From contig NZ_CP108394.1 of NCBI RefSeq assembly GCF_041435215.1, positions 5,456,001 to 5,520,000 of the forward strand: a DNA stretch of 64,000 nt, read 5' to 3'. Below, piece after piece: positions 17,294 through 33,412 of the stretch. How positions within the stretch are numbered: the stretch's first letter is position 1; each line of letters begins with the position of its first letter. The position numbers and the translations under genes are program-made. The DNA comes from Streptomyces sp. NBC_01314. GTDB taxonomy: Bacteria; Actinomycetota; Actinomycetes; Streptomycetales; Streptomycetaceae. Under the pieces are notes generated by a model. That model saw nothing but the letters and a program-made list of their open reading frames with translations, was not told the DNA's origin and did not search any database.

Positions 17294-17332
17294 GACCCCC
17301 GCGACGGGCGCAACCGTCCGGGGGCGTGGCCA
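17294..17332 (+). promoter_or_regulatory. conserved leader hairpin, copy A
   Basis: In the 5' leader of the small gene at 17355. Outer stem 6 bp (17296-17301 with 17319-17324), one bulged C (17302), inner stem 5 bp (17303-17307 with 17314-17318), loop GCGCAA, then CGTGGCCA. The same architecture, bulge, loop length and flanking bases occur at 33351-33389 with compensatory pair changes, so it is probably a functional RNA or DNA structure. It ends 30 nt before the start codon. Confidence 0.75.
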
Positions 17333-17354
17333 CCAGCCAAACCCAGAGGAGCTG

Positions 17355-17726
17355 ATGGCAGTGAGCATTATCCACACATTGGTGAAACGGGTACTGGGCG
17401 TATGGGCGCCCGGCACCGGCAGACGCCGAGCGGGCGAGCGCACGCCGGTATCCGCCCCCGACCGGGTCTCCGAGGCGCCTCTCGCGGCGACCTCCTCGCT
17501 CCCGGCCCACCGCTCCCCGTACGGACTGCACACCCCTCTCGACGGCGCTGCGAACGCCATGGTCCGGCCCTACCTGGCCGCCGTCGCTGCGAACGCCATG
17601 GTCCGGCCTTACCCGGCCGCCGTCGAGCGGAAGCGGGAGTGCGCCTTCCAGACCCGCGCACGTGGCCGTACACCGAGCTGCTTGGCAGCACCGGCTCGCA
17701 CACGCCAGTTCGCAGAGGTGCACTGA
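17355..17726 (+). CDS. small PGTGRRRAG-family protein, copy A
   Basis: 123 residues from ATG 17355 with GAGGAG upstream. The N-terminus is an amphipathic/hydrophobic helix (AVSIIHTLVKRVLGVWAP), then the signature PGTGRRRAG and, after a variable Pro/Ala stretch, HRSPYGL-x4-LDGAA-x3-VRPYLAA. The same order occurs in the protein at 33413-33727, so the two are paralogues. Function unknown. A 39-bp in-frame duplication repeats AANAMVRPYLAAV, and the C-terminus after it does not match copy B, so part of it may be frameshifted. It starts an operon of three overlapping small genes, divergent from the XRE regulator. Confidence 0.75.
   Translation: MAVSIIHTLVKRVLGVWAPGTGRRRAGERTPVSAPDRVSEAPLAATSSLPAHRSPYGLHTPLDGAANAMVRPYLAAVAANAMVRPYPAAVERKRECAFQTRARGRTPSCLAAPARTRQFAEVH
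17547..17624 (+). repeat. 39-bp tandem duplication within the small gene
   Basis: Units 17547-17585 and 17586-17624 differ at only two bases and keep the frame, adding 13 residues compared with copy B. Recent slippage or unequal exchange is likely. Confidence 0.9.
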
Positions 17727-17929
17727 TGACCGGCGGACGAGTAGGGGCTGCCGTCCAGCGCGCCGAGATGCCCATGCTCCGCGCCTACCGGCTGTGGTTC
17801 GAGCACACCCGCAGGTGCGACGGCGGCTGCAAGGGCATCCCCAAGGCGCAGGACGGGTGCGAGGCCGGGCGAGAACTGTGGGGCGCGTACCGCCTCGCGA
17901 GGATCGGAAGGGGCGGGGCGGCGTCATGA
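17726..17929 (+). CDS. small cysteine-containing protein
   Basis: 67 residues; the ATG shares one base with the preceding stop (TGATG), so translation is coupled. The core reads RAYRLWFEHTRRCDGGCKGI with a third cysteine nine residues on (KAQDGC), that is C-x3-C-x8-C, then an alpha-helical AGRELWGAYRLARIG. The cysteines could bind a metal. Unknown family; position suggests a partner of the PGTGRRRAG protein. Confidence 0.65.
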   Translation: MTGGRVGAAVQRAEMPMLRAYRLWFEHTRRCDGGCKGIPKAQDGCEAGRELWGAYRLARIGRGGAAS

Positions 17930-18186
17930 GCTGGACCATCGAGCGCGCACCAGGGCGACCGGTGCGCCGGACCGACGACGATCGTCTCGCCGTCCCCCTA
18001 CGGCTGACCCGCACCGGCGGCCACCCCACCGACACCGAACTGACCCTCACCCTTGCCGAAGCCGAACACCTCCACGCCGCCCTCTGCCGAGCCCTCGACG
18101 GCCAGCCCCCGCCACCGGCCGCCCCGGACTGCCGACAGCCCGTTCAGGCATCTCGCGGTGCCGCCCACATCGTGGGCCACGTGTAG
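17926..18186 (+). CDS. small hypothetical protein
   Basis: 86 residues starting MSWTIERAPGRPVRRTDDD. It overlaps the previous stop by 4 bp (ATGA), completing a three-gene overlapping operon. The pattern VPLRLTRTGGHPTDTELTLTLAEAEHLHAAL suggests a beta-hairpin and one helix. Not recognised; no signal or membrane segment. Confidence 0.6.
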   Translation: MSWTIERAPGRPVRRTDDDRLAVPLRLTRTGGHPTDTELTLTLAEAEHLHAALCRALDGQPPPPAAPDCRQPVQASRGAAHIVGHV

Positions 18187-18290
18187 CGGGTACGCACGGA
18201 CGGCACCACACCGACGCCCGCCGCCGACGCATCCCGAGGCGCGGCGGCGGGGCGGGGCCGAGGTGTGGCGTCCACCCACCATTCCGCCAG

Positions 18291-19172
18291 TCAGCGCACC
18301 AGCAGGTCGATCACCCCCGTCAGGTCCTCCTCGCCGCCGCCCTCGGCCAGGCGGCGGCGCATCAGCTCGAAGTAGGGGCTGAGCAGTTCCGGGCTGACGC
18401 CCTGCTGCTCGGCGGTGTCCAGGAAGGTCGGCGTGCCGGCCACCTGCATGGCCAGGTTGGAGACGACTCCCCCGGTGTAGTGACCGCTGCGCAGCCGGTC
18501 GGCGGTCTCGTGGACGGACGGGGCCATCGCGACGAGCCAGTCGGCGAGCAACGGGGCGAGGGACGCGGGGTCGATGTCCTCCTTGCGGATCAGGGCGAAG
18601 GCGTGCGCGGCCCCGGCGAACATCCCGTACATGGCGCTGAGCAGGGCCACGTCGTGCAGGGCCGCGAAGCCCGCGTCCTCTCCCACGTAGGTGGTGCCGG
18701 CCGGGACGCCCAAAGCCTCCTGGTGCCGCTCGAACACCTCGCGCGCGCCGCTGTAGAAGACGTAACCGCCTGCCTCGGGGACGCCGATCATCGGCGGGAC
18801 GGCCATGATGCCGCCGTCCAGGTAGCGGGCGCCTCGCTCACGGGCCCGTTCGGCGAGGCGGCGGGCCTGGGCGGGGGTGCTGGTGGTGAGGTTCACCAGG
18901 TCGCGGCCGGCCAGGTCGGCGCCGGCCAGCGCCTCGTCGACAGAGGCGTCGTCCAACAGGCAGACGACGACCAGGGTGTTCGCCGCGACCGCCTCGGCGG
19001 CGCTGTCCGCGACCCTCGCCCCCTCGGCGGCGAGCGCCGCGGCACGGGCCGGGCTGCGGTTCCAGACGGTGAGCGGATGGCCGGCGGCGAGCCAGGCACG
19101 AGCCAGCGCGGTGCCCATCGCGCCGAGTCCCAGCAAGGTGACGGAGGTCTTCTCGGCAAAGTTCTGTGTCAT
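18291..19172 (-). CDS. NAD(P)-dependent 6-phosphogluconate dehydrogenase-like / imine reductase-like enzyme
   Basis: 293 residues from ATG 19172. The Rossmann motif VTLLGLGAMGTALARAWLAAGH is at about 9-30, with NRS after beta2 suggesting NADP preference. The catalytic Lys of classical 3-hydroxyisobutyrate dehydrogenases is replaced in the C-terminal all-helical domain: FAALHDVALLSAMYGMFAG has Asp, as in imine reductases. It likely reduces a small carbonyl or cyclic imine in the cytoplasm. It diverges from an HxlR regulator 96 bp away, the standard arrangement for inducible reductases in Streptomyces, so HxlR control is likely. Confidence 0.8.
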   Translation of the reverse strand: MTQNFAEKTSVTLLGLGAMGTALARAWLAAGHPLTVWNRSPARAAALAAEGARVADSAAEAVAANTLVVVCLLDDASVDEALAGADLAGRDLVNLTTSTPAQARRLAERARERGARYLDGGIMAVPPMIGVPEAGGYVFYSGAREVFERHQEALGVPAGTTYVGEDAGFAALHDVALLSAMYGMFAGAAHAFALIRKEDIDPASLAPLLADWLVAMAPSVHETADRLRSGHYTGGVVSNLAMQVAGTPTFLDTAEQQGVSPELLSPYFELMRRRLAEGGGEEDLTGVIDLLVR

Positions 19173-19268
19173 GCCGAACAGGCTGGTCACGGGCGCGGAA
19201 GTGATCAAGTACGCACTTCGGAGTGGGTGGTTACCCTGAGGTGAGCGAGCACGTCGGAGGGGTGGGGC

Positions 19269-19607
19269 ATGACGACGCTGAACCGGCCGGGCGCACCGAA
19301 CGGACACGCCTGCGGGATCGACACCGCGATGGAGGTGATCGGCGGCAAGTGGAAGGTGCTGATTCTCTGGGCGCTGCACGAGCACCCCTGCCGCCGCTTC
19401 GGTGAGCTGCGTCGGCTGCTGCCGGGTGTCAGCGAGAAGGTGCTGGCCTCACATCTGCGCGAGATGGAGGCGGACGGCGTCGTGCACCGCGTCTCCTACG
19501 ACGAGGTGCCGCCCCGCGTCGAGTACTCGCTGACCGAGGACGGGACGCGCCTCAACGACGCGCTCCAGCCGCTGGCCGCCTGGGGACGCGAGCGGGCGAC
19601 GGAATAG
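19269..19607 (+). CDS. HxlR-family transcriptional regulator
   Basis: 112 residues. It is a full HxlR winged helix: CGIDTAMEVIGGKWKVLILWAL, FGELRRLLPGVSEKVLASHLREMEADGVV, and VEYSLTEDGTRLNDAL. The cysteine before IDTAMEVIGGKW corresponds to the redox- or electrophile-sensing cysteine of several HxlR/HypR proteins. It probably represses the divergent dehydrogenase and itself. GTG/ATG choice is clear: ATG 19269 follows GGAGGGGTGG. Confidence 0.88.
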   Translation: MTTLNRPGAPNGHACGIDTAMEVIGGKWKVLILWALHEHPCRRFGELRRLLPGVSEKVLASHLREMEADGVVHRVSYDEVPPRVEYSLTEDGTRLNDALQPLAAWGRERATE

Positions 19608-19754
19608 CGGTTTCAGCCGCTCGCGCGCTGTGCTTCCCCTGTGAGCCGCTATGTGTCAACGATGAATGAGACAGAATTGTTGACGATTTTTCGAGCGCCC
19701 CCGTACGTTCGCAAGCAGAAACAAGCAGGGAACGCGAGCGAAGGAAGTGGCGCG

Positions 19755-21383
19755 GTGAAGCACAGGGCAGTCAGGCGCAGGAACGTGATCATGGGGCTCG
19801 GCGCGACCGCGGGCGCGGCGGCCGTCGGCGGCTTCGCCCTCAGCGCCCGGGCGGCGGGCAGCGGCTCCGCGAAGTCCTCGGGGTCCTCCGGTTCCACCGC
19901 CTCGGGCGCCCTGGCCTTCGACAAGGACGACTACACCGAGCTGACGACGACGATCACGACCGACGACGGTGATGTGGAGGTGACCTACCACTTCCACAAG
20001 GCGATCACGTACGTCACGAAGCCGGTCGACGAGACGTACCAGTCGCTGAACGTCAGCGTGCCCGTGGAGATCGACGGGAAGACGGTCGACGCGACGAACG
20101 CGCCGATTCTGTTCGCGAATTCGGTGGGCGGCTACATGCCCTCCTCGGTGGCCGAGGCCACGGGGGTCGGCGGCGGGGGCATGACCGGGATGCCCGGTGG
20201 GGGCGCCCCCAGCGCGTCCGCCTCCGCGTCCACGGGGACCGGCTCGGGTGAGGTCGAGTCCGGCGGCAACGGCCAGCTCGACCAGCGGGGGCAGTCCGTC
20301 AGCAACGCGCAGCTCGCGCTCGCCGCCGGATACGTCGTGGTCGAGCCGGGGGCGCGTGGCCGTACCCTCGTCGACGCGGACGGGGCCTACTACGGTGTCG
20401 CACCGGCCGCCATCGTGGACCTCAAGGCGGCCGTACGGTACGTCCGCGCCAACAAGGGCCGCATCCCCGGCAACACCGACCGCATCGTGTCGTCCGGCAC
20501 CAGTGCGGGAGGTGCGCTGTCCGCGCTCCTCGGCGCGTCCGGCGACAGCCCGCTGTACGACGCGTACCTGAAGGAGATCGGCGCGGCCGACGCCTCCGAC
20601 GCGATCTTCGCCAGCGGCGACTGGTGCCCGATCACCGATCTGGAGCACGCGGACATGGCCTACGAGTGGAACTGGGGCGCCAACAAGCTCGGTTCGGGCT
20701 CGCTCGTCGACCGGACGGTGTCGAAGGAGCTGAAGGCGGCGTTCACCGACTACCAGGCCTCGCTGAAGCTCAAGGCCAAGGGCCTCGGCACACTGACCGT
20801 ACGGAACCTCGACGAGTACCTGGTCAGGACGTTCCTGGAGCCGTCGGCCACCAGGTACCTGGCCGCACTGTCGGACGCGGACCGGACGACGTATCTGGCG
20901 AGCAACACCTTCATCACCTGGTCCGGCGGCAGGGCGACGTTCTCCTGGGCGGACTTCCTCACGCACGTGGGCGCCCGGAAGAAGGACGCCCCCGCCTTCG
21001 ACGCCTTCGACCTGTCCTCCGGTGAGAACAACCTCTTCGGCAAGGGCACCACCGAGGCCCGCCACTTCACGCTCTACAGCCTCCGCCACGAGGGCAGCGC
21101 CGGCGCGCGCCTCGCCGGCGACCTGCCCGAGACGCTGAAGCTGATGAATCCGATGCCGTTCCTCGCGAAGGCCAACCCCGGGCGCGCCAGGCACTGGTGG
21201 ATCCGGGTCGGCACCAAGGACAGCGACACCTCGCTCACGGTCGTCGGCAACCTCGCCGCGAAGCTGGAGAACCTCGGCGACGACGTCAACGCCTCCATGT
21301 ACTGGGACGGCGGCCACGGCGCGAACGAGGACGCGGCCGACTTCATCAAGTGGATCGCGAAGGTGACCGGTCACAAGGCCTGA
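19755..21383 (+). CDS. exported alpha/beta hydrolase (tannase subtype B-like)
   Basis: 542 residues from GTG 19755 with AAGGAAG upstream. A Tat-like signal with RRRN precedes GLGATAGAAAVGGFALSARAAG, then a Ser-rich linker. The catalytic serine lies in IVSSGTSAGGALSALLGAS and the probable His in WDGGHGANEDAADFI. The segment AITYVTKPVDETYQSLNVSVPVEI is typical of proteins annotated as subtype B tannases. A Gly/Ser-rich insert (about 155-195) interrupts the domain. It is expected to cleave aryl or acyl esters outside the cell, possibly on plant material degraded by the neighbouring glycosidases. Confidence 0.78.
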   Translation: MKHRAVRRRNVIMGLGATAGAAAVGGFALSARAAGSGSAKSSGSSGSTASGALAFDKDDYTELTTTITTDDGDVEVTYHFHKAITYVTKPVDETYQSLNVSVPVEIDGKTVDATNAPILFANSVGGYMPSSVAEATGVGGGGMTGMPGGGAPSASASASTGTGSGEVESGGNGQLDQRGQSVSNAQLALAAGYVVVEPGARGRTLVDADGAYYGVAPAAIVDLKAAVRYVRANKGRIPGNTDRIVSSGTSAGGALSALLGASGDSPLYDAYLKEIGAADASDAIFASGDWCPITDLEHADMAYEWNWGANKLGSGSLVDRTVSKELKAAFTDYQASLKLKAKGLGTLTVRNLDEYLVRTFLEPSATRYLAALSDADRTTYLASNTFITWSGGRATFSWADFLTHVGARKKDAPAFDAFDLSSGENNLFGKGTTEARHFTLYSLRHEGSAGARLAGDLPETLKLMNPMPFLAKANPGRARHWWIRVGTKDSDTSLTVVGNLAAKLENLGDDVNASMYWDGGHGANEDAADFIKWIAKVTGHKA

Positions 21384-21470
21384 CCAGGCCGACCACCACC
21401 GGGGCCGACCGGCCCTCCCCCAGTCTCGGCGTGTCTGCGTTCCCGTCATGAAACCCGGCCGCCGAAGCGT

Positions 21471-21499
21471 GACGCCGAGCCCCTTCCGGGCTCGGCGTC
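21471..21499 (+). terminator. terminator after the tannase-like gene
   Basis: A 12-bp perfect stem (21471-21482 with 21488-21499) with a 5-nt loop. The following 60 bp repeat GCTTTTCCGGCTC-like words. Confidence 0.8.
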
Positions 21500-21607
21500 G
21501 CCACTTTCCCGACTCGGAGCCGTCGCTTTTCCGGCTCGGCGCCATCGCTTTTCCGGCTCAGCGCCGTCAGAATGTGACCGGTTCAAAAACCACCTCTGTC
21601 ACAGCCG

Positions 21608-21636
21608 TTGACTTCCTTCTCTCCCGGCTCTACTTT
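21608..21636 (+). promoter_or_regulatory. probable promoter of the GH27-GH43 operon
   Basis: TTGACT (21608-21613), 17-bp spacer, TACTTT (21631-21636), about 75 bp before the start codon. It fits the main vegetative sigma factor. Confidence 0.5.
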
Positions 21637-21710
21637 CGGCCAGCCAGCATGTTCGGCAAGCCGATCCCCGTTCGAGATATCGACCTCCGGGTATCCATTG
21701 AAGGAGCCGC

Positions 21711-23720
21711 ATGACCCCCCCTCCGCGTGCCAACTCCCGTGGTATCAAACGGCTTTGTAAAAACGCGGCGATTCGCGCCGTCACCCTGGCGACCGCCGCG
21801 ACGGCCGCCCTGCTCTTCGCCCAGCCGATGAACGCGACAACCGCGACGCCCGCCCCGGAGACGCGTCTCGACGCCGCGCCCGTGGCGGTCACGGACCGCC
21901 AGATACCGGTCCCCGAAGCCCCGATGGGCTGGGCCTCCTGGAACGCCTTCGCCGCGAAGGTCGACTACAACGTGATCAAGCAGCAGGTCGACGCGTTCGT
22001 CGCGGCCGGGCTGCCCGAGGCCGGCTACGAGTACATCAACATCGACGAGGGCTGGTGGCAGGGCACCCGCGACAGCGCGGGCAACATCACCATCGACGAG
22101 GCCGAGTGGCCCGGCGGCATGAAGGCCATCGCCGACTACATCCACAGCAAGGGCCTGAAGGCGGGCATCTACACCGACGCCGGCAAGGACGGCTGCGGCT
22201 ACTACTTCCCCACCGGCCGCCCGGCAGCGCCCGGCAGTGGCAGCGAGGGCCACTACGTCCAGGACATGACGCAGTTCTCCAAGTGGGGCTTCGACTTCGT
22301 GAAGGTCGACTGGTGCGGCGGTGACGCCGAGGGCCTCGACCCGAAGACGACCTACCAGGCGATCAGCGACGCCGTGGCCACCGCGACCGCCACCACCGGC
22401 CGCCCGCTCGCCCTCTCCCTGTGCAACTGGGGCTACTCCAACCCCTGGAACTGGGCACCGGGCATGGGCCCGATGTGGCGGACGAACACGGACATCTTCT
22501 ACCACGGCCAGTCCCTGACGTACGCGAACATGCTGACGAACTACGACCGGAACGTGCACCCCACGGCCCAGCACACCGGCTACGTCAACGACCCCGACAT
22601 GCTGCTGATCGGCATGGGGCTCACCGCCGGCCAGGACCGCACCCACATGAACCTGTGGGCGGTCTCCGGCGCCCCGCTGCTCGCCGGCAACGACCTCACC
22701 ACCATGACCACCGAGACGGTGAACACCCTCAAGAACTCCGAGGTCATCGCCGTCGACCAGGACCCCCGCGGCCTCCAGGGCGTCAAGGTCGCCGAGGACA
22801 CCACCGGCCTCCAGGTGTACGGCAAGGTCCTCTCCGGCTCCGGCAACCGCGCGGTCGTCCTCCTCAACCGCACCTCCACCACGCAGAACATGACGATCCG
22901 CTGGTCCGACCTGGGCCTGACGAACGCCTCCGCGACCGTCCGTGACCTGTGGAGCCGGACGAACGTCGGTACGCCCGGCACGAGTTACACCACCAGCGTT
23001 CCGGCGGGCTCCTCCATGATGCTCACGGTCAAGGGCGGCACCGAGCAGTCGGCGAGCTCGTACACCGGCACGTCGAGCTTCTCCGGTGTGGTCGCCGGGA
23101 ACACCGGCCTGAAGACGGTCGACGTCTCCTACACCAACAACACGTCGACGGCCCGCGTCGGCACCCTCACCGTCAACGGCCAGACGTCGACGAAGGTCTC
23201 CTTCCCGCCGACCGGCTCGTCCCCCGGCAACATCTCCGTCGCCATGGCCCTGACGAAGGGCAGCACCAACACGATCACGTTCTCCGGCGCCCCGACCCTC
23301 GAAGGCATCGTCGTACGACCGCTGCCGGGCACCAACGGCACGCTGATCACCGGCACGGCCTCCGGCCGCTGCGCCGACATCAACGACAACACCATCACCA
23401 ACGGCACCGACGCCCAGCTGTGGGCCTGCTCCGGCGGCCAGAACCAGGCCTTCACGTACACCTCCCGCAAGGAACTCGTCGTCTACGGCAACAAGTGCCT
23501 GGACGCCTGGGACCGCGGCACCTCCAACGGCACCCGCGTCGTCATCTGGGACTGCCACGGCGCCACCAACCAGCAGTGGAACGTGAACACGGACGGCACG
23601 ATCGTCAACGTCAACTCCGGTCTCTGCCTGGACGCCTACAACGCGGGCACCGCCAACGGCACGAAGCTCGTCCTGTGGGCCTGCAACGGTCAGAACAACC
23701 AGAAGTGGAGCCGGACGTGA
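21711..23720 (+). CDS. secreted GH27 alpha-galactosidase with CBM and ricin-B domains
   Basis: 669 residues; ATG 21711 follows GAAGGAG. Signal peptide about 1-45. The GH27 barrel spans roughly 65-350: MGWASWNAF, EYINIDEGWW, nucleophile D200 in VKVDWCGG, and the acid/base region NDPDM at 294-298. A beta-sandwich terminates the catalytic unit. A CBM35-like module (about 440-540, YTGTSSFSGVVAGNTG) and a ricin-B/CBM13 lectin with QxW repeats (GQNQAF, NQQWNV, NNQKWS) complete it. It should remove alpha-galactosyl side chains from galactomannan or related plant glycans. It is coupled to the arabinofuranosidase gene by a 4-bp overlap. Confidence 0.92.
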   Translation: MTPPPRANSRGIKRLCKNAAIRAVTLATAATAALLFAQPMNATTATPAPETRLDAAPVAVTDRQIPVPEAPMGWASWNAFAAKVDYNVIKQQVDAFVAAGLPEAGYEYINIDEGWWQGTRDSAGNITIDEAEWPGGMKAIADYIHSKGLKAGIYTDAGKDGCGYYFPTGRPAAPGSGSEGHYVQDMTQFSKWGFDFVKVDWCGGDAEGLDPKTTYQAISDAVATATATTGRPLALSLCNWGYSNPWNWAPGMGPMWRTNTDIFYHGQSLTYANMLTNYDRNVHPTAQHTGYVNDPDMLLIGMGLTAGQDRTHMNLWAVSGAPLLAGNDLTTMTTETVNTLKNSEVIAVDQDPRGLQGVKVAEDTTGLQVYGKVLSGSGNRAVVLLNRTSTTQNMTIRWSDLGLTNASATVRDLWSRTNVGTPGTSYTTSVPAGSSMMLTVKGGTEQSASSYTGTSSFSGVVAGNTGLKTVDVSYTNNTSTARVGTLTVNGQTSTKVSFPPTGSSPGNISVAMALTKGSTNTITFSGAPTLEGIVVRPLPGTNGTLITGTASGRCADINDNTITNGTDAQLWACSGGQNQAFTYTSRKELVVYGNKCLDAWDRGTSNGTRVVIWDCHGATNQQWNVNTDGTIVNVNSGLCLDAYNAGTANGTKLVLWACNGQNNQKWSRT

Positions 23721-25123: not shown

Positions 25124-25153
25124 GACGACCGCCCCGCTCGGTGTGACCGACCG

Positions 25154-25188
25154 TTCCCCGCGCCCCCGTTTCCTGGGGGCGCGGGGAA
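25154..25188. terminator. strong GC hairpin terminator
   Basis: A 14-bp perfect stem (25154-25167 with 25175-25188), 7-nt loop, 30 bp past the arabinofuranosidase stop. The TTCCCCGCGCCCC motif is shared with the terminator at 62391-62435. Confidence 0.85.
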
Positions 25189-25269
25189 TCGCGCGAACGG
25201 GCCCTGTCACAAGGTGTGTTGGTGCCACGGAGACCACGACGCCGTACGCCCACCTGCGATGCTGAGCGG

Positions 25270-26100: not shown

Positions 26101-26479
26101 ACGCGCCCCACGAACGCGGGCGGGTTCGTGGACCGGGGCGGGGAGGCGCGGGACGCTCGCCGGACTCCGACGCGGCAGGTGGCTTGCCAGATCGCCCGCA
26201 CCGCACGGCGCTTCGACGCACCACCCTGCGGTCCGAAGGCCACGCGGACATCGCAGGGCAGGGTGCGACAGCCCTGGGGGCGGCGCCCCAAGGCGGGTCG
26301 AAGGGCCACAGCTGCTGGGAGGGAAAGGGACGGGAAGGGACGGTACGGGCGAGGGCTGCGGAGGCGAGAAAATCTCCGGGCCACGAGCCGAACGCCGCAC
26401 CCCTCTCCGGCGTCTCAGTACCGACCGCGGTCCCGCCCTCCCGGGCGACCGCACGCGGGACGAAGGACCGGAGGGACAC
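26101..26479. other. intergenic region without recognisable gene
   Basis: Six-frame reading shows only arginine/proline-rich shadow frames. The end of the region (GACCGGAGGGACAC) supplies the ribosome binding site of the next gene. No repeat or hairpin stood out beyond short GC-rich words. Confidence 0.5.
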
Positions 26480-27094: not shown

Positions 27095-27182
27095 CCCGGA
27101 GCCGGGGTGCAACACCCCCGTGGATCCGCTATAGTTGATCACGAGCCGCTCACCGGAACAGTAACTCCCGGTAGTACTCAAT

Positions 27183-27255
27183 GCGTTGGTGGTCCAAGGA
27201 AAGACGCCCCGCTTCCTGCGGGGAAATGCAGGTGCAAGGCCTGCCCGGCGCTCCA
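27183..27255 (+). tRNA. tRNA-Gly(UCC)-like gene with encoded CCA and unusual T-loop
   Basis: A full cloverleaf can be folded: acceptor 27183-27189/27245-27251 (7 bp, two G-U), D-arm with GG, anticodon stem 27207-27211/27219-27223, loop CTTCCTG with anticodon TCC at 27214-27216, four-base variable loop, T-arm 27228-27232/27240-27244, discriminator T and encoded CCA. Glycine identity elements G1-C72, C2-G71, G3-C70, C35, C36 and U73 are all present. Odd points are T-loop TGCAAGG instead of TTC-R-A, and U at 37. A TATAGT box at 27130-27135 and a 17-bp terminator stem flank it. It may be a specialised, diverged or decaying tRNA. Confidence 0.7.
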
Positions 27256-27258
27256 GTA

Positions 27259-27297
27259 CAAGAGCCCCACTTCGCTCCATGCGAAGTGGGGCTCTTG
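27259..27297 (+). terminator. terminator of the tRNA-like gene
   Basis: A perfect 17-bp stem (27259-27275 with 27281-27297) with a 5-nt loop, beginning 3 nt after the encoded CCA. Confidence 0.9.
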
Positions 27298-27386
27298 CGT
27301 TGCACGAGACCGACAGTCTCCCCACCATCCACCAGACACCATCCACCAGAGCCGTCGCCACACCCCGAGCCCTGCGCCGCCGAATG

Positions 27387-27423
27387 GTATCGACGGAGAT
27401 AGTATCTCTCTCGATACTATCTC
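27387..27423. promoter_or_regulatory. operator-like inverted repeats upstream of the AAA ATPase gene
   Basis: GAGATAGTATC (27396-27406) and GATACTATCTC (27413-27423) are an 11-bp perfect inverted repeat. A second overlapping pair is GTATCGA (27387-27393) with TCGATAC (27411-27417). The AT-rich patch stands out and lies 18 bp before the ATG. Confidence 0.7.
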
Positions 27424-27440
27424 TCGCGGGAGTCTCCATC

Positions 27441-28862
27441 ATGCGACGATTCATCGGGCGAGACCCGGAGCTGAACGTGCTCCGCAACGCCTTCCAAGCG
27501 GTTCACGAGGCCGTCGGGTCGGCGAAGCCAGGTCAATGCATCCTCATGCGGGGCAGGCGACGGGTCGGCAAGTCCAGCCTTGTCGAGGAGTTCCTCCGGC
27601 GCACCGGGGCGCCGAACCTCTTCTTCACCGCGGCGGGCGGCACGGCGGAGGACGAACTGACAGAGCTGCTCGACACCGTCGCGAGATCCACCCTGCCGGA
27701 GAAAGAACTGTTCTCGGAGGAGACCCCGGGACAGTGGAACGCGGCGTTCAGGCTGCTCGCCGAGATCCTGCCCGACGACAGCCCGAGCGTGGTCGTCATC
27801 GACGAGGTTCCGTACCTCATGGACCGCATCGACGCCTTCGAGGGCATGCTCCAGCGGGCATGGGACCGCCTCCTCAGCCGCAAACCCGTGCTCCTGCTCC
27901 TCGTCGGATCCGACCTGTCGATGATGGAGGCACTGAACAGCTACGACCGCCCCTTCCACCAGCGAGGCCGGGAAATGGTGGTGGGGCCGCTGAACCCGGC
28001 CGACATCGGCGAGATGCTCGGCCTTCCGCCGGCGGCCACCTTCGACGCCGCCCTGATCACGGGCGGTCTTCCGCTGATCTGCGCGGAGTGGCGAGCCGGG
28101 GCGGACGTCTGGGAGTTCCTCCGCGACTCCCTGAACAACCCGATCTCGGCACTGCTGGTCTCCGCCGAGCGCTCACTGGCCGCGGAGTTTCCCCCGCAGG
28201 CCATGAGCAGGGAAGTCCTGCGGGCCATCGGAAGCGGGGAGCGGACCTTCACCAACATCGCGCGCGCCGCCGGCGGAATCTCCCACACCACTCTCACCCG
28301 TGCCACGGACGTCCTGACCGAGAAGCGGGTGGTGGCGGCCGAGCTACCCCTCTCCCCGCGTCCGTCGAAGGAACGCCGCTACCGAGTGGCCGACCCCTAC
28401 CTGCGCTTCTGGCTCGCGTTTCTGGATCCGCACATGGCGGAGATCGAGCGGATGCGGGGAGATCTCACACTGAGCCGGATCAAGGAGCGGTGGACGAGCT
28501 GGCGTGGCCGCGCGATCGAGCCTCTGGTCCGGGAATCCCTCGCCCGCCTCCTGCCGGACGGGCACCTGCCCGCCGCCCCGGCGATCGGCGCGTACTGGAC
28601 CCGCAGCAACGACGTCGAGATCGACCTGGTGGGCGCCGACCGGCAGCCGGTGGCCAAGCAGCTGCTCTTCCTCGGCTCGGTCAAATGGCTGGAGAACTCC
28701 GCGTTCGACACCCACGACCTGGCCGCACTGCAGAAGCACCGGGCCTCGCTCACCGACGAGCCCGTCCCCCTGGTGGCGGTCTCCCGCAACGGGACCAGCT
28801 GCTCCGGCCTCGATGCGGCGTACGGCCCCGAGGCACTGCTCGGCGCCTGGCGCCGGAGGTAG
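27441..28862 (+). CDS. AAA-family ATPase with DUF234 C-terminal domain
   Basis: 473 residues from ATG 27441. Walker A is GRRRVGKSS (38-46), Walker B is SVVVIDEVPYL (about 113-123), and an arginine-finger/sensor region follows. The middle winged-helix (FTNIARAAGGISHTTLTRATDVLTEKRVV) and the C-terminal DUF234 segment (RRYRVADPYLRFWLAF, WTRSNDVEIDLVGAD) are typical. DUF234 contains a nuclease-like pattern E/D-I-D-L-V. These proteins are common in archaea and actinobacteria and are suspected in DNA-related or mobile-element functions. The operator-like repeat suggests autoregulation. Confidence 0.85.
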   Translation: MRRFIGRDPELNVLRNAFQAVHEAVGSAKPGQCILMRGRRRVGKSSLVEEFLRRTGAPNLFFTAAGGTAEDELTELLDTVARSTLPEKELFSEETPGQWNAAFRLLAEILPDDSPSVVVIDEVPYLMDRIDAFEGMLQRAWDRLLSRKPVLLLLVGSDLSMMEALNSYDRPFHQRGREMVVGPLNPADIGEMLGLPPAATFDAALITGGLPLICAEWRAGADVWEFLRDSLNNPISALLVSAERSLAAEFPPQAMSREVLRAIGSGERTFTNIARAAGGISHTTLTRATDVLTEKRVVAAELPLSPRPSKERRYRVADPYLRFWLAFLDPHMAEIERMRGDLTLSRIKERWTSWRGRAIEPLVRESLARLLPDGHLPAAPAIGAYWTRSNDVEIDLVGADRQPVAKQLLFLGSVKWLENSAFDTHDLAALQKHRASLTDEPVPLVAVSRNGTSCSGLDAAYGPEALLGAWRRR

Positions 28863-28930
28863 GTCGGTCCCGAACGTTGCCGGCCTGCCCCGCGTCTCAG
28901 TGGTGACCGTCCCATAAGGAGGCCACCACC

Positions 28931-29398
28931 ATGCCGACGCCCGCCACCGTACGAGTCCGTCACCGTGCCCTGACCGCCGCCGCGATGGCCGGGACGTTGC
29001 TGTCGGTGCTTTCCGCGTGCGGGGAGGAGTCGACCACAGCGAAGGGGTCGGCGCCCGCTTGGAAGGAGCCCTCCGCGTACCGCTACACCCTGGATTCGGG
29101 TGAGGGTGAACGGGCGCTGATCGGGACGTTCGAGGTGACGGTCCGGGACGGGAAGGCCGTGAAGACCGTCGGGCTCGATGAGAGCGGCCGACGGGTGGTG
29201 GACCAGAAGCTGATCGAAGTGCCCACCATCGCCGGGTTGTTGAAGCAGGCGAAGACGGCACGGGAAGAGGGCGCCGACGTCGTGGACATCGAGTACGCGA
29301 AGGACGGCCGTCCGACCAGCATCTCCATCGACTGGGACGAGAACGCCATCGACGACGAGGAGGGGTACACCCTCGGCGACTACGAGGCGCTCGGCTGA
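28931..29398 (+). CDS. small lipoprotein (DUF6174-like)
   Basis: 155 residues; ATG 28931 follows AAGGAGG. Lipobox LSAC at about residues 28-31, so exported and lipid-anchored. The mature part (YRYTLDSGEGERALIGTFEVTVRDGKAVKTV, DGRPTSISIDWDENAIDDEEGYTLGDYE) fits the DUF6174 pattern of bacterial lipoproteins with unknown role. The 3' end overlaps the convergent lipoprotein gene by 19 bp. Confidence 0.75.
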   Translation: MPTPATVRVRHRALTAAAMAGTLLSVLSACGEESTTAKGSAPAWKEPSAYRYTLDSGEGERALIGTFEVTVRDGKAVKTVGLDESGRRVVDQKLIEVPTIAGLLKQAKTAREEGADVVDIEYAKDGRPTSISIDWDENAIDDEEGYTLGDYEALG

Positions 29399-29796
29399 CT
29401 CAGGTCCCGGATCGTGCCGCCCACCTTGGCCTTCAGCTTCTTGAGCACGGCGGGCTTGGCGGAGATGGCCCACTGCGGACCGACCAGGTACTTGCCGCCG
29501 TACATGGAGGCCGACTCCAGCCAGACTTCCTTCAGTTCGTCCTTGGGGAAGGTGGTGATGAGGTAGTCCCCCACGGCGGTCTGACACACGCCCTCGCGCA
29601 ACTCCTTCGCCTCGGTCCGGATCTTCACCTCGCACCCGGTGAGCTCGGCGATCACCTCGACCTTGGCCGGCGCGACCAGCGCGGCGACCGGACTCGACTC
29701 GCCCGACGCCTCGCCACCACCGCTGCACGCCGCCACCAGGGGCAGGACAGCCAGGCTCGCAGCCAACGCGACACCACGCGACAGCTTCCTCACCAT
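29380..29796 (-). CDS. small lipoprotein
   Basis: 138 residues from ATG 29796. Signal peptide with lipobox LVAAC at about 20-24. The mature domain has two cysteines (ELTGCEVKIR, EGVCQTAVG) and a compact alternating pattern (YLITTFPKDELKEVWLESA, YLVGPQWAISAKPAVLKKL). Unknown function, probably a small surface-anchored fold stabilised by one disulfide. Confidence 0.7.
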   Translation of the reverse strand: MVRKLSRGVALAASLAVLPLVAACSGGGEASGESSPVAALVAPAKVEVIAELTGCEVKIRTEAKELREGVCQTAVGDYLITTFPKDELKEVWLESASMYGGKYLVGPQWAISAKPAVLKKLKAKVGGTIRDLSQPSAS

Positions 29797-30073
29797 GTCC
29801 TGATCTCCGTTCGCCTTCTCCGTACCGAGTGCACTCGGCAAAAAGTACGTTTGGAAGCCGTCGGATGCTCAATCGTCGACACGTGATGTCGTCGCCCGAC
29901 CACAACCCCCTTGCATGGCTCCACGGCAAGCTCTCAGGACCCACGGGGGCAATGCCCTGATGCACCGCCGCAGGCCTCGTCCTGCCTCCACGGTCGGCCC
30001 TTGACGCATGGAACCGGCCTGCCATATGGGTGATTTGTGATACTAATCGACATGGTGCGGATAGCTATCCAGC
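29797..30073. other. intergenic region upstream of the HNH gene
   Basis: 277 bp with an AT-rich end. TTGACG (30002-30007) and later TGATACTAAT (30038-30047) are possible promoter parts for the gene at 30074; spacing does not allow a firm assignment. Confidence 0.35.
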
Positions 30074-30793
30074 ATGAGCACACCTGGCATAGACCTTTCG
30101 CATCGACGGTCTGCGGTCATCTGCGCGGCCATAGCGTTCCTTCCCGTCCCGACGGCCATCGTCGCCGTCCTGGCAAACGGCTGGGAGCGGGTCGAGAAAA
30201 CAGCCCCGGCATCGGCCCATCCTCCGCCCCCGGCCGCAGCGCCGATGGTGCCCGAGGCGCCGTCCGCCGACGTGGCTCGCACAGAGCTCGCGACCCTCGC
30301 CGTGGAGACTCCGCACTCGCTGGAGGGGTACAGCAGGGAGAAGTTCGAGCACTGGATCGAGGACCATTGGCCCCGAACACGCCAGGTGGTCCTGATCCGT
30401 GACGGCAAGCACGTCGGCGTTCAGTCAAAGGCCCAGACCGCATCGAAGAACTGGCACAGCCCCTACGACGACCGCATCCTCACGATGCCGTCGGAGGTCC
30501 ACGTGGATCACGTCGTACCACTGGCCAACGCATGGCGGTCCGGGGCGGACGAGTGGAGCGCCGCCCGGCGCAGCAAGTTCGCCAACGACCTGTCCACCAC
30601 GCAACTCATCGCCGTCTCGGTCGTGGCCAACAGGGCGAAGGGCGACCAGTCGCCCGACCAGTGGGTGCCCCCGAACACGGCCTTCCACTGCGTGTACGGC
30701 AGGGCCTGGACCCATGTGAAGTTCACCTATGGGCTCTCGGTCACCCAGAAGGAGAAGGACGCGCTGATCTCCATTCTGGACACATGCCACTGA
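30074..30793 (+). CDS. membrane-anchored or secreted HNH nuclease (DUF1524-like)
   Basis: 239 residues. A hydrophobic segment near 14-32 (AVICAAIAFLPVPTAIVAVLA) acts as signal anchor. A Pro/Ala-rich linker follows, then an HNH core: EVHVDHVVPLANAWRSGADEW, FANDLSTTQLIAVSVVANRAKGDQSPDQW. This is the DUF1524/GmrSD-C-like pattern (D-H-V-V-P, N-x-L, N-x-x-K). Such exported HNH proteins in Streptomyces are presumed extracellular DNases. It lies next to a tRNA fragment and may mark the flank of an insertion hotspot. Confidence 0.82.
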   Translation: MSTPGIDLSHRRSAVICAAIAFLPVPTAIVAVLANGWERVEKTAPASAHPPPPAAAPMVPEAPSADVARTELATLAVETPHSLEGYSREKFEHWIEDHWPRTRQVVLIRDGKHVGVQSKAQTASKNWHSPYDDRILTMPSEVHVDHVVPLANAWRSGADEWSAARRSKFANDLSTTQLIAVSVVANRAKGDQSPDQWVPPNTAFHCVYGRAWTHVKFTYGLSVTQKEKDALISILDTCH

Positions 30794-30887
30794 TGGTTCA
30801 CCAGCCATCGCGTCCGTGCCCCAACCGTCCCCGATCGAGCGGGGAATCAGGCGGAACGACGGTGGCGGGCAGGGAGCGAACAACACC

Positions 30888-30922
30888 ACGGCCCCTGACC
30901 GAATCATCTGGTCAGGGGCCGT
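30888..30922. terminator. hairpin terminator beside the tRNA fragment
   Basis: A 13-bp perfect stem (30888-30900 with 30910-30922), 9-nt loop. On the minus strand it lies 10 bp after the tRNA 3' end, as a native tRNA terminator would. Confidence 0.85.
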
Positions 30923-30931
30923 CACACAGAG

Positions 30932-30982
30932 CGGTGAGTGTGGGATTTGAACCCACGGCGACTCGCGCCACGACGATTTTCG
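30932..30982 (-). other. 3' fragment of a class II tRNA (probably tRNA-Ser CGA): putative att site
   Basis: Read on the minus strand: part of an anticodon loop (CGAAAA), anticodon stem, a variable arm GGCG-CGAGT-CGCC, a T-arm GTGGG-TTCAAAT-CCCAC, the acceptor 3' strand ACTCACC and discriminator G. The matching 5' acceptor (GGTGAGT) is absent, so identity starts in the anticodon loop. This is the usual extent of tRNA att duplications of integrative elements. The element side should be at higher coordinates. Confidence 0.75.
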
Positions 30983-31129
30983 GCTGCGTCCATGGAAATG
31001 GTGTACGGGTTCGACCTGATCCGGGGGTTTGCTCAGACTTCAGGGTGATGCCCGCATAGACGAACGGCCACCGGCTGATCTTCCTTAAAGCGGTACCGCT
31101 GCCACCAGTGACCGGTCGAAGATGGAGGC

Positions 31130-31636
31130 ATGGACACGCAGAAGGTGACCTTACGGAAGATGACGCCGTCGGAGTACGACGCGGCGACTGAGCATCGCGA
31201 AGCCGAGACCGTCCGAGAACTCGGCAAATTCATGCCCGAGGAGCTGGCGCGGGTGCGGGCTCATCAGGGCACAGCGCGGTTCCTCCCCGACGGGCTCGCC
31301 ACGACTAGTCACCATCTCGTGGTCGCGGAGAACGGATCAGGCGAAGTCGTGGGGAACGCGTGGATCGGCCCGGATCCGCGCCAGGCTGCGGACACTGCCA
31401 GCTCAGCTTGGCTGTACGACATCAACGTCTTCCCCGCGTTTCGGCGCCGCGGACACGGGTCCGCCATCCTCTCCGCCGCCGAAGAACTCGTTGCCCGCGA
31501 GGGCTGGACATCCCTCGGTTTGAATGTCTTCGGAGACAATGAGGCGGCCATTGCCCTGTATCGCCGCAACGGCTACGACGTGGAATCCATGTCCCTGCGT
31601 AAGAGCGTGCAGCAGGCTCCTGACATCAACAGCTGA
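31130..31636 (+). CDS. GNAT-family N-acetyltransferase
   Basis: 168 residues; ATG 31130 follows GATGGAGG. The acetyl-CoA motif is at about 100-125 (WLYDINVFPAFRRRGHGSAILSAAEELV, with R-R-x-G-x-G), followed by GWTSLGLNVFGDNEAAIALYRRNGY, the standard beta5-alpha4 end. The acceptor is unknown. It lies just inside the presumed att site with no obvious operon partner. Confidence 0.85.
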   Translation: MDTQKVTLRKMTPSEYDAATEHREAETVRELGKFMPEELARVRAHQGTARFLPDGLATTSHHLVVAENGSGEVVGNAWIGPDPRQAADTASSAWLYDINVFPAFRRRGHGSAILSAAEELVAREGWTSLGLNVFGDNEAAIALYRRNGYDVESMSLRKSVQQAPDINS

Positions 31637-32091
31637 CACCAATAAGCACGAACAGCACCGGCCGACGCCGGACTCCAGAGGACGTACCACCGAGTCGAGG
31701 CCGGTTGGCCGGTGGCCACGAAAACCGGTGATCGACCTGATAAGGATGAGGCCACACGTTCATGCCCTGCAGTCGGCCAGGGTCCCTCAGCCTGGCGGGC
31801 ATCTTTTAGCGCTCGTATTTGTGCCTGATGGGTACCGAGGTAGGAAGCCGCCTCACCTGCGATAGCTCCCACGAGGCCTGAGAGGGGAGATAGCCAGTCC
31901 GCGCGGCACATTGTCTAAGACGTCACCTCGCGCCGCAGCCGAATGCGTGTCGAAAGCCGCACAGCCGCCCAGAGTTCTTCGCCCCAACCGGCGTACGGGG
32001 CATCTCGTCAACGTGACGCGAAAAGCGTCGAACTGGCGCCCTCTTCCTGAGCGTCTGAGATCCTGAAGTCCGATCGAGAAGGGCCGAAGGC
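31637..32091. other. gene-poor stretch with fragment of a minus-strand gene
   Basis: No intact gene. On the minus strand near 31790-31911 the reading SGLVGAIAGEAASYLGTHQ and QIRALKDARQAEG resembles the N-terminus of a small membrane-associated protein. It then loses coding character, consistent with a broken gene. Confidence 0.3.
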
Positions 32092-32625
32092 ATGGAGTGG
32101 AAGACCCACGGTGAGCGGCAGCTCTACACGAACAAGTGGGTGAACCTGTGTCTGGTCGACGTCCAGCAGCCTGACGGGCGCAGGTGGGAGTACCACGTCG
32201 TTCGCCTCCGGCACCTGGCCGTGGCCGCCGTGGTCAACGACCGCCAAGAGGTGCTGATGATGTGGCGGCATCGCTTCATCACGGACTCGTGGGCCTGGGA
32301 GTTGCCCATGGGCCTGGTCGAAGAGGGCGAGTCGCCTGAGGAAGCTGCGGCACGCGAGGTGCTGGAGGAGACGGGCTGGCGGCCTGGCCCCATCAAGCCT
32401 CTGATCTACGCCGAGCCGGCCAACGGGATCACCGACTCACAGCACCACGTCTTCCGCGCGGACGGCGCGACCCACGTCGGGCCGCCCGCCGAGAAGAACG
32501 AGTCGGACCGCATCGAGTGGATCCCGCTCAGTGAGGTGCGCGGGATGATCGACCGTCGCGAGATCGTGAGCAGCGGGACCCTCGTCGGGCTCCTCTACCT
32601 GCTCATGGATGAAGCGATCCGCTGA
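32092..32625 (+). CDS. Nudix hydrolase (integrative-element Pif type)
   Basis: 177 residues. The Nudix box GLVEEGESPEEAAAREVLEETGW (G-x5-E-x7-R-E-V-x-E-E-T-G-W) is complete at about 85-107. The N-terminal WKTHGERQLYTNKWVNL, RLRHLAVAAVV and the later GITDSQHHVFRADGATHVG form the family-specific fold. Similar proteins are carried by actinomycete integrative elements; in pSAM2 the Nudix protein Pif mediates transfer immunity. Whether this copy does so is unknown. The substrate would be a nucleoside diphosphate derivative. Confidence 0.85.
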   Translation: MEWKTHGERQLYTNKWVNLCLVDVQQPDGRRWEYHVVRLRHLAVAAVVNDRQEVLMMWRHRFITDSWAWELPMGLVEEGESPEEAAAREVLEETGWRPGPIKPLIYAEPANGITDSQHHVFRADGATHVGPPAEKNESDRIEWIPLSEVRGMIDRREIVSSGTLVGLLYLLMDEAIR

Positions 32626-32819
32626 CCGGCGGGAGGACTGCCAGTAGCCGTGCCTCGAAGGCCAGAGCCACGGGCTCCTGCCTGCGTGGGGCCAACTGGT
32701 CGTAGAACTCCCTGAGATGGCCAGAAACCCGCTCGGACGCCAGGCGGGCGGTCGAGTACCCGGACGACACTCCTCGCGCCGTGCAGAGAGAAGCCGCGGC
32801 GAACGGTCGGCGCCGCCCC

Positions 32820-32922
32820 GTAGAGGCGCCCGGTGAGCTGGGCGAACTGATCGACGCCATGCTCAGCCACGCTCCCGAGGACCGGCCGACCATCAACGAG
32901 GTGGGTAAGGCACTCGGCTGAG
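32820..32922 (+). pseudogene. 3' remnant of a Ser/Thr protein kinase gene
   Basis: The frame reads GELGELIDAMLSHAPEDRPTIN then EVGKALG before a stop at 32920-32922. This is the end of a eukaryote-type kinase domain (helix I with P-E-D-R-P-T). No start or kinase core is present upstream. On the minus strand 32603-32780 another coding-like piece (VSGHLREFYDQLAP, LAFEARLLAVLP) also lacks a plausible start, so this stretch is a patchwork of remnants. Confidence 0.45.
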
Positions 32923-32989
32923 TTGCGAAGCATGCCCGGACGGGCGCCGGACCGCATCGGAGGCCTGGGCGGCCTGAGCCGAAACGACG

Positions 32990-33247
32990 TTAGCCCGTGG
33001 GGGCGTCACCTGCGGCAGGGGGCCTTTCGGCGACGAAGGAGCCCATGCCCGGGGTCGTGGTGATCAGGCCGTCCGCTCGCAGGGCGGCCGTCACCTTGCG
33101 AACGGTCGTTCGCGCCACGCCGAACTCCTGCTCCAGTCGCACTTCGGAGATCATCGTTTGGGGCGGGTACTGGCCGCTCGCGATCCGCTTACGGAGCACG
33201 TCGGCGATCTGGACCCACTTGGGCCTGGTGGGGTCAAACTCGATCAC
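32990..33247 (-). CDS. small GntR-family HTH regulator
   Basis: 85 residues from GTG 33247 (GTG 33262 is an alternative). It is a complete GntR winged helix and nothing else: KWVQIADVLRKRIASGQYPP, EVRLEQEFGVARTTVRKVTAAL, RADGLITTTPGMGSFVAERP. There is no ligand domain, so it may act as a simple repressor or need a partner. It diverges from the small-protein operon at 33413 and a palindrome of the right size for a GntR dimer lies between them over the putative -35. Longer reading frames upstream are not supported. Confidence 0.8.
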   Translation of the reverse strand: MIEFDPTRPKWVQIADVLRKRIASGQYPPQTMISEVRLEQEFGVARTTVRKVTAALRADGLITTTPGMGSFVAERPPAAGDAPTG

Positions 33248-33291
33248 AGCAGGACCGTACACAGCGACCGAGATTCGAACATAGAGCACTG

Positions 33292-33323
33292 CCGGTGCAC
33301 CTAGGTGTAGACAGGTGCACCGG
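33292..33323. promoter_or_regulatory. inverted-repeat operator, probably for the GntR regulator
   Basis: CCGGTGCACCT (33292-33302) and AGGTGCACCGG (33313-33323) form an 11-bp perfect inverted repeat. The spacer contains the first part of a TAGACA -35 box. Confidence 0.7.
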
Positions 33324-33336
33324 ACGTGGCTAGTGT
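33308..33336 (+). promoter_or_regulatory. promoter of the copy B small-protein operon
   Basis: TAGACA (33308-33313), 17-bp spacer, TAGTGT (33331-33336). The -35 lies inside the operator repeat, so a bound repressor would block it. The leader hairpin begins about 15 bp downstream. Confidence 0.55.
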
Positions 33337-33350
33337 CAGGCGCGATGAAA

Positions 33351-33389
33351 GACCCCGGCGAGGTGGCTAGACCTCCCGGGGCGTGGCCA
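33351..33389 (+). promoter_or_regulatory. conserved leader hairpin, copy B
   Basis: Outer stem 6 bp (33353-33358 with 33376-33381), one bulged C (33359), inner stem 5 bp (33360-33364 with 33371-33375), loop GGCTAG, then CGTGGCCA. Architecture and flanks match copy A at 17294-17332; three pairs differ by compensatory changes. It ends 31 nt before the GTG start. Confidence 0.75.
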
Positions 33390-33412
33390 ACGCTGGTTAA
33401 GGAGCGTCGACA

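Follow-up and report, generated by a model that had tools for sequence, protein, structure and literature searches.

A putative cis antisense RNA cassette at the translation starts of different genes in Streptomyces and in viral contigs

INTRODUCTION

Two small paralogous genes of one Streptomyces chromosome share a hairpin in their leaders. To which RNA does this hairpin belong, and is it tied to a single kind of gene? The two genes lie in a stretch of 64,000 nucleotides (nt) of Streptomyces sp. NBC_01314 (assembly GCF_041435215.1, contig NZ_CP108394.1, forward strand, positions 5,456,001 to 5,520,000), here called the window and numbered from its first letter; one, of the PGTGRRRAG family, opens module A at 17355, and the other, its paralog, opens module B at 33413. 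An initial annotation, made from the letters alone, proposed that the shared hairpin is a conserved, perhaps RNA-level, control element of an undescribed small-protein system. Here we document the conservation of the element in sequence and structure, its covariation, its strand asymmetry, its position and the genes with which it associates. We posit that the element is likely to encode, on the strand opposite to the genes, a cis antisense RNA of about 66 nt (range 58-73 nt, with assumed ends), which would carry an anti-Shine-Dalgarno loop, repress translation and serve as a cassette shared by different genes.

THE LEADER HAIRPIN AND ITS COVARIATION

The hairpin of module A consists of a 6-base-pair (bp) stem (17296-17301/17319-17324), a bulged C (17302), a 5-bp stem (17303-17307/17314-17318) and a 6-nt loop; that of module B has the same parts, with stems at 33353-33358/33376-33381 (6 bp) and 33360-33364/33371-33375 (5 bp), the bulged C at 33359 and again a 6-nt loop. 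Directly 3' of both stands CGTGGCCA. Read from the sequence, stems, bulge and loop are all present where the initial annotation had placed them, and the three compensatory differences that it listed between the copies (17300-17320/33357-33377, 17305-17316/33362-33373 and 17307-17314/33364-33371) are correct. The distance of 30 or 31 nt that it gave to the start codon holds when counted from the end of the hairpin, whereas from the end of CGTGGCCA the distance is 22 or 23 nt.

Covariation in the leader hairpin is significant. A plain MAFFT alignment of the eight copies of this genome contains 11 doubly changed cells, a count that none of 500 shuffles equals; double changes fall in four pairs, a number that 142 of 500 shuffles reach. 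Among 83 genomic copies, 97.7% of the hairpin cells are paired and 9 of the 11 pairs show double changes, and the corresponding figures for 74 distinct viral copies are 99.8% and 6 of 11; both alignments were fitted to a model that already holds the leader hairpin, and the pattern by which the viral copies were found fixes seven of the 11 pairs, leaving four free there.

THE STRUCTURED STRAND

A hairpin in DNA can be read on either strand, and a second hairpin, nearer to the start codon, tells the two strands apart. We analyzed 173 nonredundant copies, 101 genomic and 72 viral. Around the Shine-Dalgarno sequence, 51 of 99 genomic and 54 of 72 viral copies can form a second helix of at least 4 bp; in 300 permutations the counts reach at most 34 and 28. 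Over nine positions of this hairpin, both sets taken together, 310 cells are G-U pairs on the antisense strand only, versus 31 on the sense strand only (182 versus 14 in 93 genomic copies and 128 versus 17 in 72 viral ones). When the near-invariant second position, which almost always shows the same mismatch, is removed, the counts are 112 versus 14 and 59 versus 17, and the leader hairpin leans the same way (18 versus 2 genomic, 2 versus 0 viral). Out of nine positions, the antisense strand pairs on average 7.75 (genomic) and 7.85 (viral) and the sense strand 5.95 and 6.31; sliding the register by one or two lowers the mean to 1.1-3.4, and 500 permutations of the 3' arms yield maxima of 6.71 and 6.86, below the antisense values.

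Folding agrees with the wobble counts. The same stretch is more stable on the antisense strand in 98 of 101 genomic and 71 of 72 viral copies (169 of 173), with mean gains of 5.6 and 5.9 kcal/mol, and the antisense minimum-energy fold has two top-level hairpins in all 173. Where the anti-Shine-Dalgarno letters were found inside the first hairpin, at least two of the four are unpaired in 78 of 99 genomic and 47 of 66 viral folds.

At module B, the fold and the strand asymmetry of the family predict an antisense RNA of some 66-70 nt on the minus strand (33345..33414), with its 5' end near 33414 and its 3' end near 33345. Its stem-loop 1 (33386..33411, minus strand) would be a helix of 9 bp, G-U pairs included, that presents the loop CCUUAACC opposite the Shine-Dalgarno sequence (33399-33404). 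The antisense fold has two hairpins at -34.6 kcal/mol (z -4.5), and a longer sense stretch has z -2.4. At module A, folding predicts an antisense RNA at 17288..17362 (minus strand), with a stem-loop 1 at 17329..17359 (minus strand) that contains the anti-Shine-Dalgarno CUCCUC; again there are two hairpins, at -40.8 kcal/mol (z -3.2), with z -2.1 for the longer sense stretch. The antisense strand folds better because GGCC...UCGAC pairs there by G-U and leaves A-C mismatches on the sense strand.

The leader hairpin itself would be stem-loop 2 of the antisense RNA, at 17296-17324 in module A (by sequence and fold) and at 33353-33381 in module B (by sequence and alignments), both on the minus strand, and is better read as the terminator stem of that RNA. 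Behind it on the antisense strand comes TCTTT, whose sense letters A-A-A-G-A occur at 63, 73, 67, 83 and 90% in 98 genomic copies. The 6 nt before the stem, on the sense strand, hold on average 3.47 A in genomic and 3.31 in viral copies, and the 6 nt behind it hold 0.44 and 0.62 T. Within the window, the tails behind stem-loop 2, both on the minus strand, are the T-rich TCTTTCAT in module B (33345..33352) and TCCTCACT in module A (17288-17295).

PROMOTER MOTIFS ON BOTH STRANDS

Motifs resembling promoters occupy restricted positions on either strand. In 48 of 98 genomic and 42 of 71 viral copies, a sense TANNNT begins 17-30 nt upstream of the stem, compared with 4 and 3 in an equally wide control window, and from this position the messenger RNA (mRNA) is expected to begin some 8-10 nt before the hairpin. 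According to a published map of transcription starts, TANNNT is the -10 motif of 80.4% of 3,570 mapped S. coelicolor starts (PMC4895711). The sense promoter predicted from the sequence of module B (33308..33336, plus strand) consists of TAGACA (33308-33313), a spacer of 17 nt and TAGTGT (33331-33336), and the mRNA is expected to start near 33344.

The second motif lies within the genes themselves, where A is favored at +8 and +13 and T at +12. The sense letters ANNNTA, that is, TANNNT at +13..+8 of the antisense strand, begin precisely at +8 in 65 of 101 genomic and 62 of 72 viral copies (127 of 173); at any other single place in the first 60 nt of the coding sequence they occur in at most 6 copies, and at +8 they occur in none of 537 other genes of the same regions. 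Since ANNNTA at +8 is the majority state in 28 of the 40 protein clusters described below and in 17 of 25 singletons, it can hardly reflect protein conservation. Read on the opposite strand, it is a TANNNT predicted to be placed so as to start an RNA at the start codon, and a relaxed form of this antisense -10 is present in 159 of 173 copies, a count made without a control set. The predicted -10 box of module B is TAGGGT, within codons 3-5 (33420..33425, minus strand); that of module A is GATAAT (17367..17372, minus strand), a variant of the GTGAGCATTATC subfamily and not an exact TANNNT.

These observations bear on an alternative in which the mRNA acts by itself, its hairpins burying the Shine-Dalgarno sequence as in homing endonuclease genes of T4-like phages, and no antisense RNA is involved. 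It draws on the helix of at least 4 bp that exceeds the permutations, on the sense promoter right upstream and on a gene class, described below, for which hairpins at the ribosome binding site are documented in T4 (PMC2988022). We nevertheless think it improbable: in the sense leader, the Shine-Dalgarno sequence is paired with a mean probability of 0.5 and 0.4, the wobble pairs favor the other strand, and a leader acting in cis would leave the fixed ANNNTA at +8 and the A-rich flank before the stem unexplained. The suggestion of a conserved RNA-level element is upheld, with a change of strand: wobble pairs, the fixed antisense -10 and the T-rich tail favor the strand opposite to the leader, and the structured RNA that selection maintains is probably not the sense leader.

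DISTRIBUTION OF THE ELEMENT

We searched with two covariance models, R1, built from the eight leaders of this genome with only the leader hairpin set as paired, and R2, built from 42 leaders. Both hold the second hairpin only as unpaired sequence and exclude the coding sequence, and their expectation values (E) are rough. The first small gene has nine clear copies in the genome, eight with the hairpin directly upstream and one (L009) without it. R1 finds 13 sites in this genome at E<0.003, five of them before other small proteins; R2 finds 15, two of them in the window at E≤0.001. Farther afield, at least one R2 site occurs in 217 of 293 genomes drawn from the order and in 55 of 296 from a class-wide draw (both at E≤0.001) and in 38 of 296 from a phylum-wide draw (E≤0.0001). 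Scanning named genomes with a pattern yields at least 118 stretches, mostly from Streptomyces; the other genera with the element, among the matches listed, are Nocardiopsis, Actinorugispora, Streptomonospora, Kitasatospora, Actinacidiphila and a Rhodococcus. In viral contigs, at least 120 stretches match the plain hairpin pattern, from which both the second hairpin and the coding sequence are absent. A contig assigned to a Deltaproteobacteria metagenome bin (L323) likewise contains the hairpin pattern and is either mislabeled or a case from outside the phylum.

The expectation that the hairpin should precede other members of the PGTGRRRAG family is largely borne out. A profile of this type gives 38 matches in 12 of 41 genomes, and in 24 of the 30 loci fetched the element lies directly upstream; one of these 24 (L451) is weak, at 22.1 bits, and several, including five of this genome, belong to the training set of R2. 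The six family loci that lack the element are L443, L444, L449, L453, L455 and L462, of which L449 and L455 end at a contig edge.

GENES BEHIND THE ELEMENT

Contrary to what had been proposed, the element is not confined to one small-protein system. The proteins encoded behind the 173 copies fall into 40 clusters with no BLAST link between them (E 1e-3), an upper figure, as some small-protein clusters share GRHR/RPY motifs by eye and are maybe distant relatives; the largest are an HNH group (53) and the cluster that holds the PGTGRRRAG family (45). Phage HNH, endonuclease VII and GIY-YIG-like proteins are among them, as are two transposases.

From 80 analyzed stretches of the at least 120 in viral contigs we obtained 65 distinct complete proteins. 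Their Pfam matches, several of which may fall on one protein, are HNH_3 (16), Endonuclease_7 (14), HNH (11), HNH_5 (11), GIY-YIG-like MUG113 (4), T5orf172 (2) and LAGLIDADG_3 (1), and assignment to PHROGs agrees. When viral proteins were scanned singly, 23 of 30 (7, 6 and 10 of 10) matched a nuclease family of homing-endonuclease type. Gordonia phage Asapag has a 60.4-bit copy, and the gene that follows it is annotated as an HNH endonuclease. For gp001 of Corynebacterium phage phi16, annotation places the start at 204, inside the element (L312:185-255), and a start at 255 fits better; the gene behind this copy has no Pfam match at 0.01 and resembles a PLD-type nuclease by eye only.

The 67 chromosomal proteins have few Pfam matches: HTH_36 (3), HNH_3 (2), the transposase family DDE_Tnp_1 (2), DUF6415 (2), a recombinase (1) and some others. 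Directly before the DDE_Tnp_1 transposases (L190:6017-6075 and L191:1454-1512) stand weaker, element-like hairpins of 33.0 and 30.2 bits. At six loci of one family of the order, f3 (L042, L045, L046, L047, L048 and L049), the element precedes a replication-protein-like gene of the HTH_36 group, HTH_36 having been matched in three of those scanned; the region between hairpin and Shine-Dalgarno sequence is shortened in this group, and a GGAG there can pair with CTCC.

Such a range of genes also bears on whether the sense leader could bind a protein or a ligand, as an operator or riboswitch would, with the bulged C and CRYGGCC forming the site for a common host factor that switches translation. 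The bulge, its flanking pairs and GGCC are indeed nearly invariant across different genes. This reading is nonetheless quite doubtful, less probable even than a leader acting purely in cis: as the basal stem of antisense stem-loop 1, GGCC and UCGAC already have an explanation, no metabolic theme unites the genes for which Pfam gives a match, and no known aptamer is matched in Rfam. At the curated gathering threshold and on either strand, Rfam (release 15) gives no match in the window and none in 20 element-bearing loci, and a lax search with one copy gives three matches, all far below their thresholds.

The genes upstream were called by simpler means. By home-made gene calling, a divergent small GntR-type or XRE gene is found no more than about 300 nt from many chromosomal copies; in viral contigs, by rough calling, the nearest upstream gene is on the same strand in 46 copies, divergent in 10 and uncallable in 16 of 72. 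That the element acts as DNA, being the end of a mobile cassette, a recombination site or an XRE/GntR operator whose regulator would use the antisense -10 as its promoter, is the least probable reading of all and very unlikely, for although these divergent regulators, the 10 divergent viral neighbors and the association with mobile genes would suit it, the viral upstream gene is on the same strand in 46 of 56 callable copies, the -10 is nevertheless more frequent in viral than in chromosomal copies (62 of 72), and compensatory changes and wobble asymmetry require RNA pairing.

A CASSETTE BUILT ON BOTH STRANDS

We envisage a compact, portable control cassette that uses both strands. The sense promoter would start the mRNA about 8-10 nt before the leader hairpin, and an antisense promoter with its -10 in codons 3-5 would direct synthesis of an RNA of about 66 nt complementary to the 5' leader. 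In this RNA, stem-loop 1 would display an anti-Shine-Dalgarno loop of the CUCCUU type and stem-loop 2 would act as the terminator. Pairing with the mRNA, which would probably begin loop to loop at the Shine-Dalgarno sequence, could then block ribosome entry and keep the gene silent or its expression low. Loops and first stem diverge between copies, and each antisense RNA should therefore fit its own gene best. The same cassette would have been acquired by phage endonuclease genes, by transposases and by chromosomal small genes beside XRE or GntR regulators. From the patterns in the sequence we infer that this antisense RNA is synthesized, stops at the hairpin and holds translation down.

Several observations weigh against this proposal. 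For control stretches from coding sequence, too, the antisense strand is the more stable one in 67 of 101 and 53 of 72 cases, by a mean of 1.8 and 3.2 kcal/mol; stability alone is thus insufficient, and the wobble counts do most of the work. The strand test left out eight genomic copies without GGCC (the six of the HTH_36 group, L184 and L187), and in the HTH_36 group the pairing of GGAG with the CTCC just before the start is uninformative as to strand. From a plain alignment of 82 antisense sequences, in which the arms of the second hairpin look misaligned by eye, RNAalifold recovered the leader hairpin with one additional G-U closing pair and did not recover the second hairpin. The TCTTT tail includes a conserved C, which is unusual for a terminator. 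An exact antisense -10 is absent from 46 of 173 copies and even a relaxed one from 14, and in one cluster of 7 there is none. As for the antisense -35, it is weak: TTGACC at four or more of six positions occurs at the right spacing in 13 of 65 genomic and 13 of 62 viral copies (2-10 and 5-12 at wrong spacings), and TTGACA occurs in 7 of 65 genomic (1-9 at wrong spacings) and 15 of 62 viral copies (2-7). Module A has no clear sense -10, and its antisense one is only of the GATAAT type. Finally, a consensus scanner called neither promoter nor terminator in the two window copies; by its description, it requires an unbroken stem next to the loop, for which a bulged stem does not qualify.

RELATION TO KNOWN SYSTEMS

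RNA-OUT of IS10 is about 70 nt long, forms one main stem-loop and has its promoter inside the gene. We compare it with the proposed RNA by architecture and not by sequence relation. The short antisense RNA of IS10 is described as complementary to the 5' translation initiation region and as blocking the ribosome binding site (PMC6601013). The structure described here is likewise encoded opposite the translation initiation region, by position and strand in up to 173 copies, and as to a promoter inside the gene, its -10 is fixed at +13..+8 and its -35 is weak. It differs from RNA-OUT in having two stem-loops, an anti-Shine-Dalgarno loop and a bulged stem that would act as terminator, and in standing before 40 protein clusters and not one transposase family.

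Homing endonuclease genes of T4-like phages (I-TevI, segB, mobE and seg43(25)) have promoters of their own and structure around or next to the ribosome binding site, and homing endonucleases of these phages are held down after transcription (PMC2988022). The viral copies described here resemble them in gene class, in a predicted promoter of their own and in structure near that site. The T4-type hairpins act on the sense strand and are combined with early/late promoter switching, whereas the selected structure here appears to be antisense and the cassette serves HNH, endonuclease VII, GIY-YIG-like and non-nuclease genes as well. A sense helix of the T4 type is supported here by the permutations and, with a pairing probability of 0.4-0.5, is weaker than the antisense structure.

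Cluster K phages repeat the 13-bp SAS, GGGATAGGAGCCC, which encloses AGGAG, at the start codons of different genes, and the associated ESAS are inverted repeats (with TGTTGA half sites in TM4 and Pixie) for whose pairing as RNA the authors found little support (PMC3203893). We rejected identity of our element with SAS/ESAS, as the eight leaders of this genome and the 42 of the model set read differently from GGGATAGGAGCCC at the start codon. In the right genome halves (30000 to end), R2 at E<0.1 gives a single weak site for TM4 (19.1 bits); Pixie has three, none above 15.5 bits, and in each phage one site stands directly before a SAS. The hairpin at these places (L315:2392-2450 and L314:6217-6276 for TM4 and Pixie) reads CCCCCGC...GCGGGGGC-TGGCC and is possibly, judging by its letters, a distant relative of the element.

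RNA antitoxins of type I toxin-antitoxin systems and copy-control RNAs of plasmids are cis antisense RNAs that use stem-loops and bulges against the translation initiation region. They differ from the RNA proposed here in their targets, which here are nucleases and small proteins with no known toxicity. Among the results listed from one open-access library, no report of the element was found.

To our knowledge, the control of free-standing homing endonucleases has been worked out mainly for T4-like phages. If our reading is true, the antisense cassette would be a general solution to endonuclease control across nuclease types, one that extends to transposases and small genes of a large phylum, and would account at the same time for conserved leaders and for start-codon contexts. 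It makes a testable prediction, an antisense RNA of about 66 nt from each site; with the covariance model, many unnamed small genes can be sorted according to their control element; and for the reading of genomes there is a caution, as an upstream hairpin may belong to the opposite strand. More tentatively, and with slightly less than even confidence, we suggest that actinobacteria and viruses share an undescribed, portable family of antisense RNA genes that moves between unrelated genes and silences self-spreading nucleases or other risky genes through copy-specific loops; resident RNAs could then silence incoming relatives.

THE SMALL-PROTEIN MODULES AND THEIR NEIGHBORS

As first described, the two modules are operons of overlapping small genes with paralogous members, one divergent from an XRE and the other from a GntR-type regulator. 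Module A (plus strand) comprises a PGTGRRRAG-family small protein with an altered C-terminus (17355..17726), a cysteine-containing protein of 67 amino acids (17726..17929) and a third of 86 amino acids (17926..18186); the XRE-type regulator, with an HTH_31 domain, lies at 15902..17068 on the minus strand. Module B (plus strand) comprises a family member of 104 amino acids (33413..33727) and a strongly conserved protein of 99 (33727..34026), and divergent from it is a small GntR-type winged-helix protein of 85 amino acids (32990..33247, minus strand), whose start comes from our own gene calling. None of the small proteins in the window, the second and third of module A included, has a Pfam or NCBIfam match.

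A profile search scoring 7988 candidates assigns 1027 proteins to the PGTGRRRAG family at E≤0.001; among the matches listed, relatives from a named organism all belong to Streptomyces and are described as hypothetical or uncharacterized. A tblastn search of plasmids with the first small protein gives no match at 0.01. The structure predicted for this protein, a low-confidence model (pLDDT 65), begins with a helix, is disordered in the middle and ends in helices, and the idea that it is a type I toxin was set aside on account of that low confidence. For the second gene of module B, a search gives 476 relatives at E≤0.001, many of them with about 70% identity. Its product is predicted to be compact, with a beta-hairpin and two long helices that form a helical hairpin (pLDDT 82.3); a fold search with it gave no match in the PDB at E≤0.001. 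A protein that resembles it by eye is encoded directly behind a copy of the element at another locus (L160).

The first small gene of module A contains a 39-bp tandem duplication (17546-17625, 2.1 copies, 95% match), and the C-terminus of its product no longer resembles the conserved end of the family; this copy is perhaps in decay. A NUDIX hydrolase gene (32092-32625) adjoins the GntR gene of module B, an arrangement that recalls the pif/korSA neighborhood of the integrative element pSAM2. Elsewhere in this genome, near 6299.75 kilobases (L005), an inverted repeat, AGAGGGTAGACGG...CCGTCTACCCTCT, lies just upstream of the element and is perhaps the operator of the divergent GntR-type gene.

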